Source: Gammaproteobacteria bacterium (lineage in GTDB: Bacteria > Pseudomonadota > Gammaproteobacteria > 21-64-14). From it: a stretch of 64,000 nucleotides of DNA. The notes under the pieces are model-generated. The model had not been told where the DNA came from. It did not search any database and saw nothing but the letters and a program-made list of their open reading frames with translations. The translations under genes were made by a program, and so were the position numbers. Below are positions 33,136 to 38,658 of the stretch, piece by piece (positions within the stretch are counted from its first letter, which is position 1; each line of letters starts with the position of its first letter). The stretch spans positions 1-64,000 of the forward strand of contig JALUXX010000062.1 of the NCBI GenBank assembly GCA_027013145.1, read 5' to 3'.

Positions 33136-34272
33136 TCAAGTCGGCAGCAGCTTGCGGTGGGTGTGAATGGACATGAGCATACCGAAACCCGCCATGACCG
33201 TCACCATGGAGGTCCCGCCGTAGCTGATCAACGGCAGCGGCAGGCCGACGACGGGGAGCAGGCCCGTGACCATGCCGGCATTGACGAAGACGAAGAAGAA
33301 GAAGGTCAGCGCCAGCCCCCCGGCGAGCAGCCGCGTAAACGTCGTCTGGGCCTGGGTCGCGATGTAGAGACCGCGCACCACCAGGAACAGGTACAGCGCG
33401 AGCAGCACCAGGATCCCGAACAGTCCGAATTCCTCGCCGAAGACCGACAGGATGAAGTCGGTGGATCCTTCGGGCAGGAAGTCGAGGTGGGACTGGGTCC
33501 CGTTGAGCCAGCCCTTGCCGTATAGGCCGCCCGAGCCCAGGGCGATCGTCGACTGGATGATGTGGTAGCCCGCTCCCAGGGGGTCGTTCTCCGGGTTGAG
33601 GAAAGTCAGGACGCGCTGGCGTTGATACCCGTGCATGAAATGCCACAGTACCGGTACCAGCGCGGCGCCGAGGGCGAGCATTCCCAGGATGAGACGCCAC
33701 CGCAGCCCGGCGAAGAACAGCACGAAGAACCCGGCCGCGGCGACGAGCACGGCGGTCCCGAGGTCGGGCTGGCGCGCGATCAGGCCGGTCGGGATCAGGA
33801 TCATCAGCGCGCACAGGGCCACCTGCAGGCGGCCGGGCGGCAGCGCCTTGTCGTGCAGATACCACGCGACCATCATGGGGACCGCGAGCTTCATCATCTC
33901 CCCCGGCTGGAAGCGGAACAGGCCGAGGTTCAACCACCGCTGCGCCCCCTTGCCGGTGTGGCCGACGACCAGTACCGCGACCAGCAGCAATATCCCGGCG
34001 GTGAACGCGACCGGCGCGATGCGCCGCAGCCAATGCGGGGGCACCTGCGCGACCAGGAGCATGGCGACGAGGGCGACGACCAAGCGAATCACCTGCTTCC
34101 ACACATGGTGCATGTCCTGGTCCGTGGCGCTGTAGAGGATCACCAGCCCGAGCAGCGCCACCGCCGTCGAGCCGATCAGCAGCGGCATGTCGAGGTGCAG
34201 CCGCGTCGTCAGGCGATGGAATCCGCTCCCCGACGCCGTCGTCGGACTGTCGAGCATGAGCCGCGAACTCAC
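33136..34272 (-). CDS. rodA: RodA, SEDS peptidoglycan glycosyltransferase
   Basis: Polymerises lipid II for cell elongation, in complex with PBP2. The 378-residue protein has about ten transmembrane helices and the SEDS signature (WLNLGLFRFQPGEMMKL; NPENDPLGAGYHIIQS; GSTDFILSVFGEEFGL). GTG at 34272 overlaps the mrdA stop as GTGA; an internal ATG at 34257 is also plausible. Confidence 0.95.
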   Translation of the reverse strand: MSSRLMLDSPTTASGSGFHRLTTRLHLDMPLLIGSTAVALLGLVILYSATDQDMHHVWKQVIRLVVALVAMLLVAQVPPHWLRRIAPVAFTAGILLLVAVLVVGHTGKGAQRWLNLGLFRFQPGEMMKLAVPMMVAWYLHDKALPPGRLQVALCALMILIPTGLIARQPDLGTAVLVAAAGFFVLFFAGLRWRLILGMLALGAALVPVLWHFMHGYQRQRVLTFLNPENDPLGAGYHIIQSTIALGSGGLYGKGWLNGTQSHLDFLPEGSTDFILSVFGEEFGLFGILVLLALYLFLVVRGLYIATQAQTTFTRLLAGGLALTFFFFVFVNAGMVTGLLPVVGLPLPLISYGGTSMVTVMAGFGMLMSIHTHRKLLPT

Positions 34273-36119
34273 TGTTTCTCCCTCACCAGGTATTCGTCCA
34301 TCACCTTGCGCGCGATCGGCGCGGCGGCAACCCCACCGTACCCGCCGTGTTCGACGATCACCGCCACCACGATCTTCGGATCGTACGCCGGGGCGAAGCC
34401 GATAAACAAGGCGTTGTCCCGCAACTTGAAGGGGATCTTCGCCTCGTCCTTGTAGCCGCCCTCGCCGGTCCCGAACAGTTGGGCGGTGCCGGTCTTGCCC
34501 GCGATGGTGTAGCTCAGGCCGCGGGCGATGGAGTGTGCGGTGCCGTGAATGCTGCTGACGACGTCCGTCATCGAGGTGATGACGTCCTTCCAGTAGGCGG
34601 GATTGGCGAGGACGATCGTGGGCCGGTAGCGGGTCGGAACGATCTGGAGATGACCGGTGCTCGGATCCTTGGTGGCGTAGAGGAGGTGAGGAACGACCCG
34701 CCGGCCGTGCGTGGCCAGCGCTGCCACGGCCGTCGCCAACTGCAACGGAGTGACCAGTGTGTATCCCTGCCCGATGCCGTTGATCAGGGTCTCCCCCGGA
34801 TACCACGGCTGGTGCCGGACCGCCTCCTTCCACTGCGGGGACGGGAGCAGCCCGGCCTTCTCCCCCGGCACGTCCACCCCGGTGCGTTCGCCGAATCCGA
34901 AGCGGCTCAGAAACGCATGCATCCGGTCGATGCCCAGTTCGTGCGCCAGTGAGTAGAAGTAGACGTCGCAGGACTCCGTGATCGCCTCCTTCAGGTCGAC
35001 GGTCCCGTGGCCGGTGCGTTTCCAACCCCAATATTTTCTGCTGCTGCCCGGCAGTTGGTAATACCCGGGGCAGTAGACGGTGCTCGTGGGCGTGACGGTA
35101 CCGTACTGCAGGCCGGCGAGGGCCATGAACGGCTTGATCGTGGATCCGGGGGCGTACATCCCACGGATCGCCCGGTCGAACAGCGGGTGTCCGGGGTTGT
35201 CGCGCAGGGCCCGGTAGGCCTTGGCGTCGATCCCGTCGACGAAGGGGTTGGGGTTGTAGACCGGGGTGCTCACCATCGCAAGTATGTCCCCGTTGTTCGG
35301 ATCCAGCGCCACCACCGCGCCGTGATAGTCGCCGAGCGCCTTCTGCGCCGTCTCCTGGAGTCGCGTGTCCAGGGTCAGATAGAGGTCGTCCCCGGGTTGG
35401 GGCGCATCGCGCTTGAGCACGCGCAGTGTGCGGCCCTGAGCGTTGGCCTCGACCTGCTCGACGCCGACGTTTCCGTGCAGCAGTGCCTCGTAGTACTGCT
35501 CGATGCCGGTCTTGCCGATGTAGGAGGTGCCGGCATACTCGCTGCTGTTCACCCGCTGCAGATCCGCCACGTCGATGCGCCCGACATAACCGATGTCGTG
35601 CACCGCCAGCGGGCCGAGCGGGTAGTAGCGACTGAGTCGTGCGGTCACGTCGACTCCGGGGAAGCGCCAGCGGTTGACGGCGAAGCGGGCGACCTCCTTC
35701 GGCGTCAGCCGGAAACGAAGCGGGATGCTCTCGAAACGGGGCTTCTGCGCCATCAACTGCCGAAAGGCGTCGACGTCGTCGTCGCTGATGGGGATCAGCC
35801 GGCGCAACCGCGCCAGCGTGGACTTGAGGTTCGGGACCTGCTCGGGCGTGATCTCGAGGTTGTAGGTGGGGACGTTCTCGGCGAGGAGCACGCCGTTGCG
35901 ATCATAGATCAGTCCGCGCGTGGGCGGCACCGGAAGGAGCTTGACCCAGTTCTCCTTGGACAGCGTCGCATAGTGTTCGTAGGAGACGATCTGCAGGTAC
36001 ACGAGGCGCGCGATGAGCACGGCGGTCAACAGCCCGATGAGAATCACCGCCCACGTGGCACGGACGATGGTGAGCTGGCTCTCCGCCAGGTAGTCCTTGA
36101 GTGTCAGGCGCCGCGCCAT
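34269..36119 (-). CDS. mrdA: Penicillin-binding protein 2 (elongation transpeptidase)
   Basis: Class B transpeptidase that cross-links peptidoglycan during cylindrical growth. The 616-residue protein has a single N-terminal transmembrane helix (about 21-41), a dimerisation domain, and the penicillin-binding motifs STIK (Ser326-Lys329), SCD (383-385) and KTG (542-544). It is coupled to rodA by a GTGA overlap and follows mreD by 43 bp. Confidence 0.95.
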   Translation of the reverse strand: MARRLTLKDYLAESQLTIVRATWAVILIGLLTAVLIARLVYLQIVSYEHYATLSKENWVKLLPVPPTRGLIYDRNGVLLAENVPTYNLEITPEQVPNLKSTLARLRRLIPISDDDVDAFRQLMAQKPRFESIPLRFRLTPKEVARFAVNRWRFPGVDVTARLSRYYPLGPLAVHDIGYVGRIDVADLQRVNSSEYAGTSYIGKTGIEQYYEALLHGNVGVEQVEANAQGRTLRVLKRDAPQPGDDLYLTLDTRLQETAQKALGDYHGAVVALDPNNGDILAMVSTPVYNPNPFVDGIDAKAYRALRDNPGHPLFDRAIRGMYAPGSTIKPFMALAGLQYGTVTPTSTVYCPGYYQLPGSSRKYWGWKRTGHGTVDLKEAITESCDVYFYSLAHELGIDRMHAFLSRFGFGERTGVDVPGEKAGLLPSPQWKEAVRHQPWYPGETLINGIGQGYTLVTPLQLATAVAALATHGRRVVPHLLYATKDPSTGHLQIVPTRYRPTIVLANPAYWKDVITSMTDVVSSIHGTAHSIARGLSYTIAGKTGTAQLFGTGEGGYKDEAKIPFKLRDNALFIGFAPAYDPKIVVAVIVEHGGYGGVAAAPIARKVMDEYLVREKQ

Positions 36120-36162: not shown

Positions 36163-36651
36163 TCAATGGACCCGGAAGCGGCGTCGCAGGTCCCGCAGCA
36201 GGAGGAACAGCGCCGGCCAGAGCATGGTGCCGGTGAGCGACGGGGCCCAGTACAGCCAAGTGCGGGCCGGCCGCCCGATGATGCCGTTGATCCACAAGGT
36301 CACCAGTTGATAGAGCGCGAGCAGCATCAGCACGCTCAGCGCCTGCTGCCACATCGGATAGACCCGGATCCGCTGGTGCAGTTTCAGCGCCAGGAAGGCG
36401 ACCACCGTCAGTCCGAGCGCGTGCTCGCCGAGCAGCCCCCCCTTGAGGACGTCCATCAGGAGGCCGACCAGCCAGGCGCTTCCCACCCCGACCCGTTCCG
36501 GGAGCGCCAGGCACCAGTAGATCAGTACCAGTGCCGTCCACTCGGGGCGGAACGGATCGACCACCTGCGGCAGCGGGAGGATCGACAGGAGCATCGCGAC
36601 GACGAAGCTCAGGACGATGATCCAGCCGCCGCGGCGGCCGTCGCCGATCAC
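36163..36651 (-). CDS. mreD: MreD rod-shape membrane protein
   Basis: Inner-membrane elongasome component of 162 residues with about five helices. It shows the MreD motifs DPFRPEW and GLLMDVLKGGLLGEHALGL. I choose GTG at 36651, which overlaps the mreC stop as GTGA and gives the standard N-terminus; the frame start at 36693 would lie inside mreC. Confidence 0.93.
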   Translation of the reverse strand: MIGDGRRGGWIIVLSFVVAMLLSILPLPQVVDPFRPEWTALVLIYWCLALPERVGVGSAWLVGLLMDVLKGGLLGEHALGLTVVAFLALKLHQRIRVYPMWQQALSVLMLLALYQLVTLWINGIIGRPARTWLYWAPSLTGTMLWPALFLLLRDLRRRFRVH

Positions 36652-37499
36652 CGGCCCCTCCGCGCGGCCCCGCAGGCCTTGCCGCGAGGCCACACCAGCA
36701 TCACCTCGCGGCTGCGGTCCAGGTGGGCGGTGGGGGTCGCGGTGACCTCCGCGAACGGGCGGCCGGGGTCGCGCCGCACCGCGGTCACCCGTGCCACCGG
36801 GTAGCCGGATGGATAGCGCCCGCCGAGTCCCGACGTCACCAGCAGATCCCCGACCCGGATGTCGGCGTTGTTCGGCAGGTGGGGCAGTTCCAGCCGGTCC
36901 ATGGCGCCGGTGCCGACGGCGATCGCCCGCAGGCCGTCGCGGTTGACCTGCACCGGGATCGCCTGGCTGACGTCGGTGATGAGCATCGCGGTGGCGCTGA
37001 GGGGGCCGACGTGGGTGATCTGCCCCATCACCCCGTCGGCGTCGAGCAGGGGTTGGCCGACGCAGACGCCGTCGTCACCGCCCTTGTCGATGACGACGCG
37101 GTGCTTGTAGGGGTCGAGGTCCACCGCCATGATCTCGGCGATGAGGATGCGCCCGTCGACCTGGGCCGAGGATTCGTGCAGCGCCCGCAGGCGCAGATTC
37201 TCGGCCTCCAGCGCCGCCATCCGCTGCAGTTCCGTCTTGAGGACGAACTGCTGCGTGCGCAGCGCGGCGTTCTCCTCGAGGAGCCTGCGCCGCGAGGTCA
37301 CGGTCTCCTCGATCCAGCGCCCGGCCGCGACCGGCAGGTCGACGGCGTATTGCAGCGGGTAGACGACCACCGACAGGGCGCCACGCAGCGCCTCGAGGTG
37401 CTGCGCGCGGTGATCCGCCGTCATGAGCAGGATCGAAGCCAGGGCGAAAACCACCAGACGGGCGGTGATCGACGGACCTTGTGTGAACAGCGGCTTTAT
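36648..37499 (-). CDS. mreC: MreC rod-shape protein, apparent AUA start
   Basis: Periplasmic scaffold of the elongasome. From the first standard start codon (GTG, 37454) the protein would be 268 residues and lack the cytoplasmic end and part of the single membrane helix. The same frame continues upstream without a stop. From ATA at 37499 it reads KPLFTQGPSITARLVVFA, the conserved MreC N-terminus, with GGGGG eight bases before. AUA is a rare initiator, so a sequence error cannot be excluded. A coiled coil (LLEENAALRTQQFVLKTEL) follows the helix, then two beta domains. The gene is 47 bp after mreB. Confidence 0.9.
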   Translation of the reverse strand: MKPLFTQGPSITARLVVFALASILLMTADHRAQHLEALRGALSVVVYPLQYAVDLPVAAGRWIEETVTSRRRLLEENAALRTQQFVLKTELQRMAALEAENLRLRALHESSAQVDGRILIAEIMAVDLDPYKHRVVIDKGGDDGVCVGQPLLDADGVMGQITHVGPLSATAMLITDVSQAIPVQVNRDGLRAIAVGTGAMDRLELPHLPNNADIRVGDLLVTSGLGGRYPSGYPVARVTAVRRDPGRPFAEVTATPTAHLDRSREVMLVWPRGKACGAARRGR

Positions 37500-37546
37500 C
37501 GGTACAACCCCCGCACCGGCGGCAGCATCCGGGTACTGGCGGTGCG

Positions 37547-38658
<1,112 letters not shown>

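Follow-up and report, generated by a model that had tools for sequence, protein, structure and literature searches.

An apparent AUA start codon in mreC and its AUC and AUU counterparts across families of Gammaproteobacteria

Introduction

Only a few chromosomal genes have been documented with a conserved AUH (AUA, AUC or AUU) or similar start codon, namely infC and pcnB and, in other phyla, sigR, ccpN and cvfC1. For pcnB of Escherichia coli, Binns and Masters reportedly described in 2002 an AUU start that limits translation. In Streptomyces, sigR starts at GTC behind AGGAGGTG, alternating with GTT, and is repressed by IF3, as tested with IF3 mutants; according to the cited sections of that report, the non-standard start is kept in 34 Streptomyces species (32 with GTC and 2 with GTT) and was not seen in other actinobacterial genera (PMC5472188). 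In Staphylococcus aureus, infC (AUA), ccpN (AUA) and cvfC1 (AUU) are described, in the cited part of the source, as carrying an extended Shine-Dalgarno sequence (PMC13009471).

The present study concerns mreC in the window, i.e., the whole 64,000-nucleotide stretch of gammaproteobacterial DNA analysed (contig JALUXX010000062.1). An earlier note, made from the letters of this stretch, had proposed that mreC starts at AUA behind a G-rich, Shine-Dalgarno-like run. MreC is a cell-shape scaffold, and we know of no link between it and translation initiation.

Results

The mre locus and the start region of mreC

The mre genes lie on the minus strand of the window in the order mreB-mreC-mreD. The mreB gene (37547..38593), identified from the open reading frame list and a profile match, has an ordinary ATG start, and its stop lies 47 nt upstream of the ATA proposed to initiate mreC. 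Read from this ATA, mreC (36648..37499) encodes 283 amino acids plus a stop, with an N-terminus conserved across families, and its product was identified as MreC by the equivalog model TIGR00219 (194 bits, cut-off 92.75) and the barrel-core model PF04085 (139.8 bits, cut-off 28), both above their curated cut-offs. Downstream, mreD (36163..36693, minus strand; TIGR03426, 134.8 bits against a cut-off of 34.85) is listed with an ordinary GTG start, and the cluster continues on the same strand with mrdA, encoding PBP2 (34269..36119; TIGR03423, 767 bits against a cut-off of 455), and with a RodA-like frame recognised from its translation.

On the minus strand, the start region of mreC reads GGT GCG GGG GTT GTA CCG up to the proposed start, followed by ATA and then AAG CCG CTG TTC ACA CAA GGT CCG TCG. 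The frame is open upstream of the listed GTG at 37454 through IKPLFTQGPSITARL, which is the conserved beginning of MreC (IKPLFTQGPS), and no in-frame ATG, GTG or TTG occurs in the stretch from the preceding stop, 62 codons upstream, to this GTG, in agreement with the earlier claim that the conserved N-terminus is encoded ahead of the first standard start codon. The GTG itself (37452..37454, minus strand) lies 15 codons inside the conserved N-terminus, within the N-terminal hydrophobic segment, and was judged not to be the start; initiation there would lose the conserved segment KPLFTQGPSITARL (37455..37496, minus strand), as recognised from the translation and from relatives. The proposed initiation codon ATA (37497..37499, minus strand), whose decoding as fMet would be expected, aligns with ATG, ATC, ATT or ATA in relatives. 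The G-rich run that had also been noticed before corresponds to GGGGGT (37507..37512, minus strand), a Shine-Dalgarno sequence with a 7-nt spacer to the ATA, whose most stable 8-base pairing with the 16S tail reached -9.8 kcal/mol and ended 6 nt from the ATA.

A genus mate (L002, 88% identical) carries GGGGTTGTACCGATAAAG at the position of the mreC start. Between the two genomes, the first 15 mreC codons show four synonymous changes and none that is non-synonymous, and the 15 codons upstream of the ATA one synonymous and nine non-synonymous changes, with the four codons adjoining the start being identical. The upstream stretch of the genus mate comprises 15 open codons, in which GTT GTA CCG is kept and CTG is absent. 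A sequencing slip at the ATA was considered and is unlikely, since the genus mate is a separate genome with the same ATA.

Start codons of mreC across the class

The comparison of start codons in relatives suggested in the earlier note was extended to mreC and its flanks in 190 genomes of Gammaproteobacteria from 157 families (by database codes), with one locus per genome and duplicates dropped, and the codon four before a conserved Phe was scored as the start position. ATH (ATA, ATC or ATT) occupied this position in 101 of the 190 genomes, although two of these (L273 and L275) have no conserved Phe and are probably misaligned; 87 of the 101 had no in-frame ATG, GTG or TTG in the 60 codons upstream and 14 had one. 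At the family level, 73 of 157 families contained at least one ATH row, and 64 of 157 an ATH row lacking a standard start within 60 codons upstream. The aligned codon was ATG in 20, GTG in 3 and TTG in 2 of the 190 genomes, 40 had a standard codon within 15 codons upstream, 6 were unplaced, and the other 18 included GTT in L102 and L103 and ATH one codon earlier in L080, L090 and L259. These frequencies depend on the draw of genomes: ATH was found in 66 of 90 drawn by similarity to MreC of the window (84) or of Pseudomonas aeruginosa (6), in 16 of 30 from an initial draw by family (the best 30 of 35 matches), in 19 of 70 drawn to fill uncovered families, and in 35 of the 100 outside the similarity draw. 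A further set of named loci (L122-L201), likewise drawn by similarity and overlapping in species with the survey, had ATH in 76 of 80 (ATT 37, ATC 23, ATA 16), GTT in three and TTG in one.

Among rows with the conserved Phe, the start position held ATH in 99 of 164, compared with 1 of 164 for each of the two codons that follow and 12 of 161 for codon -1, and ordinary isoleucine positions inside MreC reached 30/164 (codon +3) and 31/164 (codon +10). The occurrence of ATH at the mreC start position is not due to chance. The 99 rows were divided into AUC (42), AUU (35) and AUA (22), the codon of the window being the least common. A FastTree tree of 122 rows required a minimum of 37 exchanges within the ATH set (ATA, ATC and ATT) and of 13 from ATH to a standard start or back, which shows a lasting use of this codon set; such changes do not prove selection against ATG. 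In addition, GTT starts behind a strong Shine-Dalgarno sequence were found in L102/L184, L103, L188 (a Halioglobus MAG) and L194. In other classes of the phylum, none of the 14 loci examined (of 43 matching genomes) had ATH at the aligned codon, with N-termini that align poorly. Five of the loci from other classes (L377, L378, L380, L383 and L386) have TTG at or adjoining the aligned start with Shine-Dalgarno energies of -6.6 to -11.8 kcal/mol, perhaps another form of a design that joins a weak codon to a strong Shine-Dalgarno sequence.

In P. aeruginosa (CP123788.1), ATC is found at 219, separated from an in-frame stop by three codons, and the record annotates mreC from 267, 16 codons too late, so that 219-266 (16 residues) are omitted. 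Four genomes sharing one family code, including one whose MreC is 80% identical to that of P. aeruginosa, likewise have ATC, which makes five of five with P. aeruginosa itself. Solved structures of P. aeruginosa MreC begin to match only at query residue 95 or 112 and leave the N-terminus uninformed. ATG occupies the start in E. coli, Klebsiella, Proteus and Aeromonas; the N-terminus of E. coli MreC, MKPIFSRGPSLQIRL (MKPIFSRGPS), is homologous and begins at the Met aligned with the ATH codon, behind a weak Shine-Dalgarno sequence. The aligned codon is CAT in Legionella adelaidensis and CAA in Acinetobacter baumannii, both with GTG codons upstream. As a side observation, mre genes were encountered on records of a plasmid collection (L116, NZ_LR134431.1; L117, NZ_AP026896.1; L118, NZ_OL790811.1; L120, CP125156.1; L115, CP123788.1), comprising three of megabase size (4.9, 4.1 and 5.4 Mb), one 42.6-kb record of Legionella and one linear 1.1-kb record of Pseudomonas, all of which look like misfiled pieces of chromosomes.

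Signals around the start codon

Further analysis was based on 85 clean rows with ATH at the mreC start and no standard start within 60 codons upstream, including one (L290) that has ATG at the next codon and is to be discounted. An in-frame stop lies within 10 codons upstream of the ATH in 54 of these rows and within three codons in 17. The mean Shine-Dalgarno energy by position peaked at -6.8 kcal/mol in ATH rows and -1.6 kcal/mol in ATG rows, and the best-site medians were -7.3 (n = 85) and -2.9 kcal/mol (n = 19), respectively (p = 1.7e-7 without phylogenetic correction). The median at the first standard codon downstream was -1.5, and in 83 of 85 rows the site there was weaker than the one at the ATH; on the same score, only 39 of the 85 ATH rows exceeded the 5% tail of random internal sites. 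Duplexes of -5 or stronger were present in 89 of 99 ATH rows compared with 7 of 23 standard rows. Across eight independent pairs, on average 5.3 pointed one way and 0.3 the other (median p 0.06), which is only suggestive of a trade-off between the start codon and Shine-Dalgarno strength. The first standard codon downstream varied in identity (GTG 38, ATG 25, TTG 22) and in place (1-97 codons downstream) over the 85 rows.

The codon signature of the same rows, in which the selection of rows itself dictates codon 0 and the Phe codon, showed all three positions of codons -14 to -5 to be near-random (1.91-1.99 bits), the Shine-Dalgarno sequence to be visible at codons -4 and -3, and the upstream codons to be otherwise without conservation apart from a slight bias at codon -1. 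Beginning with codon 1, variation was for the most part lower at the first two codon positions than at the third. At the start, RNA structure did not exceed chance in mononucleotide shuffles (median z 0.08 in ATH rows and 0.18 in ATG rows).

Control genes and a within-genus scan

As negative controls in the same loci, mreB had a standard start in all 112 evaluable rows (10 of 122 were not evaluable), and mreD in 119 of the 120 found, under a start rule looser than that for mreB. As a positive control, infC was examined in the 27 loci that carried its motif, and 20 of them lacked a standard start within 30 codons. The motif missed 3 of the 30 loci, among them that of the window genome, whose infC (L306) was read directly and has ATC after TTTTGGAGGACTGAAGC (GGAGG) with no standard codon among the first 37. 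The infC gene of the genus mate (L314) also has ATC after GGAGG with no standard start codon near, and is 92% identical to that of the window genome from the first codon on. Thus, two or more genes of the window genome, mreC and infC among them, apparently start at AUH. For pcnB in relatives, the motif could be placed in 19 of 30 loci (11 not), all 19 with an in-frame standard codon before the motif, in some cases only deep in the conserved part.

A scan for further such genes within the genus compared parts of the window genome (383 kb) with parts of the genus mate (1.03 Mb) and yielded 99 frame pairs, possibly including non-gene frames, of which 92 were evaluable and 18 gave raw matches. Judging from the rows, 17 of the 18 appear to be alignments that continue past an ordinary start into the upstream sequence (0.36-0.77 identity in that part), and mreC alone combined a fully identical segment with the lack of a standard start. 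The scan is leaky and gives no reliable measure of rarity: it missed infC, although the pair is 92% identical with no standard codon before codon 37, a loss taken to result from the overlap filter, as a longer antisense frame over infC scores higher.

Discussion

A start of mreC translation at AUA is well supported by these sequence comparisons, owing to the position of the codon, its conservation, the lack of standard alternatives, the Shine-Dalgarno sequence and the onset of the coding signature. The AUA start put forward in the earlier note is therefore kept as the best reading, with which the aligned codons of relatives, the missing standard alternatives and the Shine-Dalgarno sequence all agree; what did not stand is its treatment as an oddity of one gene, since ATA, ATC and ATT starts recur in many families of the class. 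Given this recurrence, the start has the appearance of a conserved brake on translation and not of a sequencing slip.

The explanation that we favour, with a probability of about 0.85, is that the AUA is read as fMet by way of the strong Shine-Dalgarno sequence in an IF3-limited start, lowering the rate of MreC synthesis relative to MreB. The initiator would be selected through the Shine-Dalgarno sequence 7 nt upstream, and AUH codons initiate poorly because IF3 destabilises such complexes. An attenuation of mreC thus follows from the known biochemistry of IF3-discriminated codons, and MreC would be made more slowly than MreB from the same operon; its output should rise when IF3 discrimination drops. 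The same pairing of an AUA, AUC or AUU (occasionally GUU) start with a strong Shine-Dalgarno sequence occurs in many families, with AUG lineages such as E. coli tending to a weak Shine-Dalgarno sequence. MreC is a scaffold needed in smaller amounts than MreB, which would fit translation below the potential of its Shine-Dalgarno sequence, and the AUA start plausibly limits MreC relative to MreB.

Other placements of the start were weighed against this reading. The deposited P. aeruginosa record, with its coding sequence from 267 and the conserved N-terminus at 219, would favour initiation at the first standard codon downstream, i.e., at GTG 37454 in the window, giving an MreC without its N-terminal segment behind an untranslated stretch. 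We regard this as highly improbable and as contradicted by the comparison, because the segment in question is conserved as protein with third-base variation, E. coli begins at the homologous Met, and the downstream codons have weak Shine-Dalgarno sequences and vary in identity and place. Equally improbable is a start at another non-standard codon further upstream (GTA, GTT or a CTG overlapping the mreB stop) with the ATA as an internal isoleucine codon: the 62 open codons in the window would permit it, but GTT shares bases with the Shine-Dalgarno sequence and GTA lies nearly next to it, the genus mate lacks the CTG, the frame is closed within three codons in the 17 rows mentioned above, the upstream codons are unconserved beyond the Shine-Dalgarno sequence and the mild bias at codon -1, and the same codon is ATG in 19 aligned rows. 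Slightly better odds, though still poor ones, are given to ribosomes that re-initiate on mreC after finishing mreB and so relax the need for a standard start. The short distance between the two genes in the window suits such coupling, but the distance separating the mreB stop from the mreC start varies between -1 and 435 nt over 83 rows (median 68), mreC has a strong Shine-Dalgarno sequence of its own, and mreD in the same loci shows no comparable relaxation.

If initiation at AUA is accepted, its role may be either to fix a stoichiometry or to place elongation under IF3-linked control. A brake of fixed strength that determines the MreC:MreB ratio, with IF3 sensitivity as a by-product and no regulatory role, stands at about even odds: ATG rows have a weak Shine-Dalgarno sequence instead, so that selection may act on low output alone, and the lack of RNA structure beyond chance at the start points the same way. 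On the other hand, a weak Shine-Dalgarno sequence with ATG would suffice for such a brake, yet the strong one has been kept together with AUH through the many codon changes of the tree, an argument that is not decisive. Because the Shine-Dalgarno sequence is strong, the arrangement may serve to make the start responsive to initiation factors, and not just to keep output low. In much of the Gammaproteobacteria, the cell-wall elongation machinery might be wired to translation via IF3, such that the supply of MreC, and hence rod elongation, would track the state of initiation (which may be IF3 per ribosome or the availability of 30S subunits) in step with infC; this proposal is tentative and, on balance, rather unlikely.

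No report of a non-standard mreC start was found in the full-text literature among the matches listed; the kind of start is known, and neither the membership of mreC in it nor its spread, nor its occurrence in P. aeruginosa, was found in print among those matches. With ATH in 73 of the 157 sampled families, mreC would, to our knowledge, be the broadest such case beside infC. In species with such starts, gene finders that accept only ATG, GTG and TTG would be expected to truncate MreC at its N-terminus or to place that end wrongly, as seen in the one P. aeruginosa record, and the single start codon of mreC would provide a simple genetic handle on the coupling of cell elongation to initiation-factor activity.

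Compared with the described systems, mreC shows the features of starts of the infC and sigR kind, i.e., a non-standard codon where the protein begins and no standard alternative upstream of it, a strong and well-spaced Shine-Dalgarno sequence, and conservation in relatives. Like sigR, it combines such a codon with an extensive ribosome-binding site and a wrongly annotated start, and its GTT variants recall the GTC/GTT alternation of sigR; unlike the sigR start, which the cited sections describe for Streptomyces and not for other actinobacterial genera (PMC5472188), that of mreC extends over many families, and the action of IF3 on it is predicted. The ccpN and cvfC1 genes of S. aureus resemble mreC in having conserved AUH starts directed by an extended Shine-Dalgarno sequence, whereas they belong to Staphylococci, serve other functions and are backed, in the cited part of the source, by ribosome profiling and reporters (PMC13009471), the mreC start being proposed from sequence. 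The mreC gene of E. coli shares its neighbours and a homologous N-terminus with that of the window and differs in its ATG start and weak Shine-Dalgarno sequence. The pcnB gene of E. coli, judging by the title of its report, offers the parallel of an AUU start that limits translation. A further parallel in design is infC (AUU, AUC or AUA), where an IF3-discriminated codon likewise stands behind a strong Shine-Dalgarno sequence and is widespread in the same class; infC is autoregulated by its own product, whereas the product of mreC is a cell-shape scaffold.
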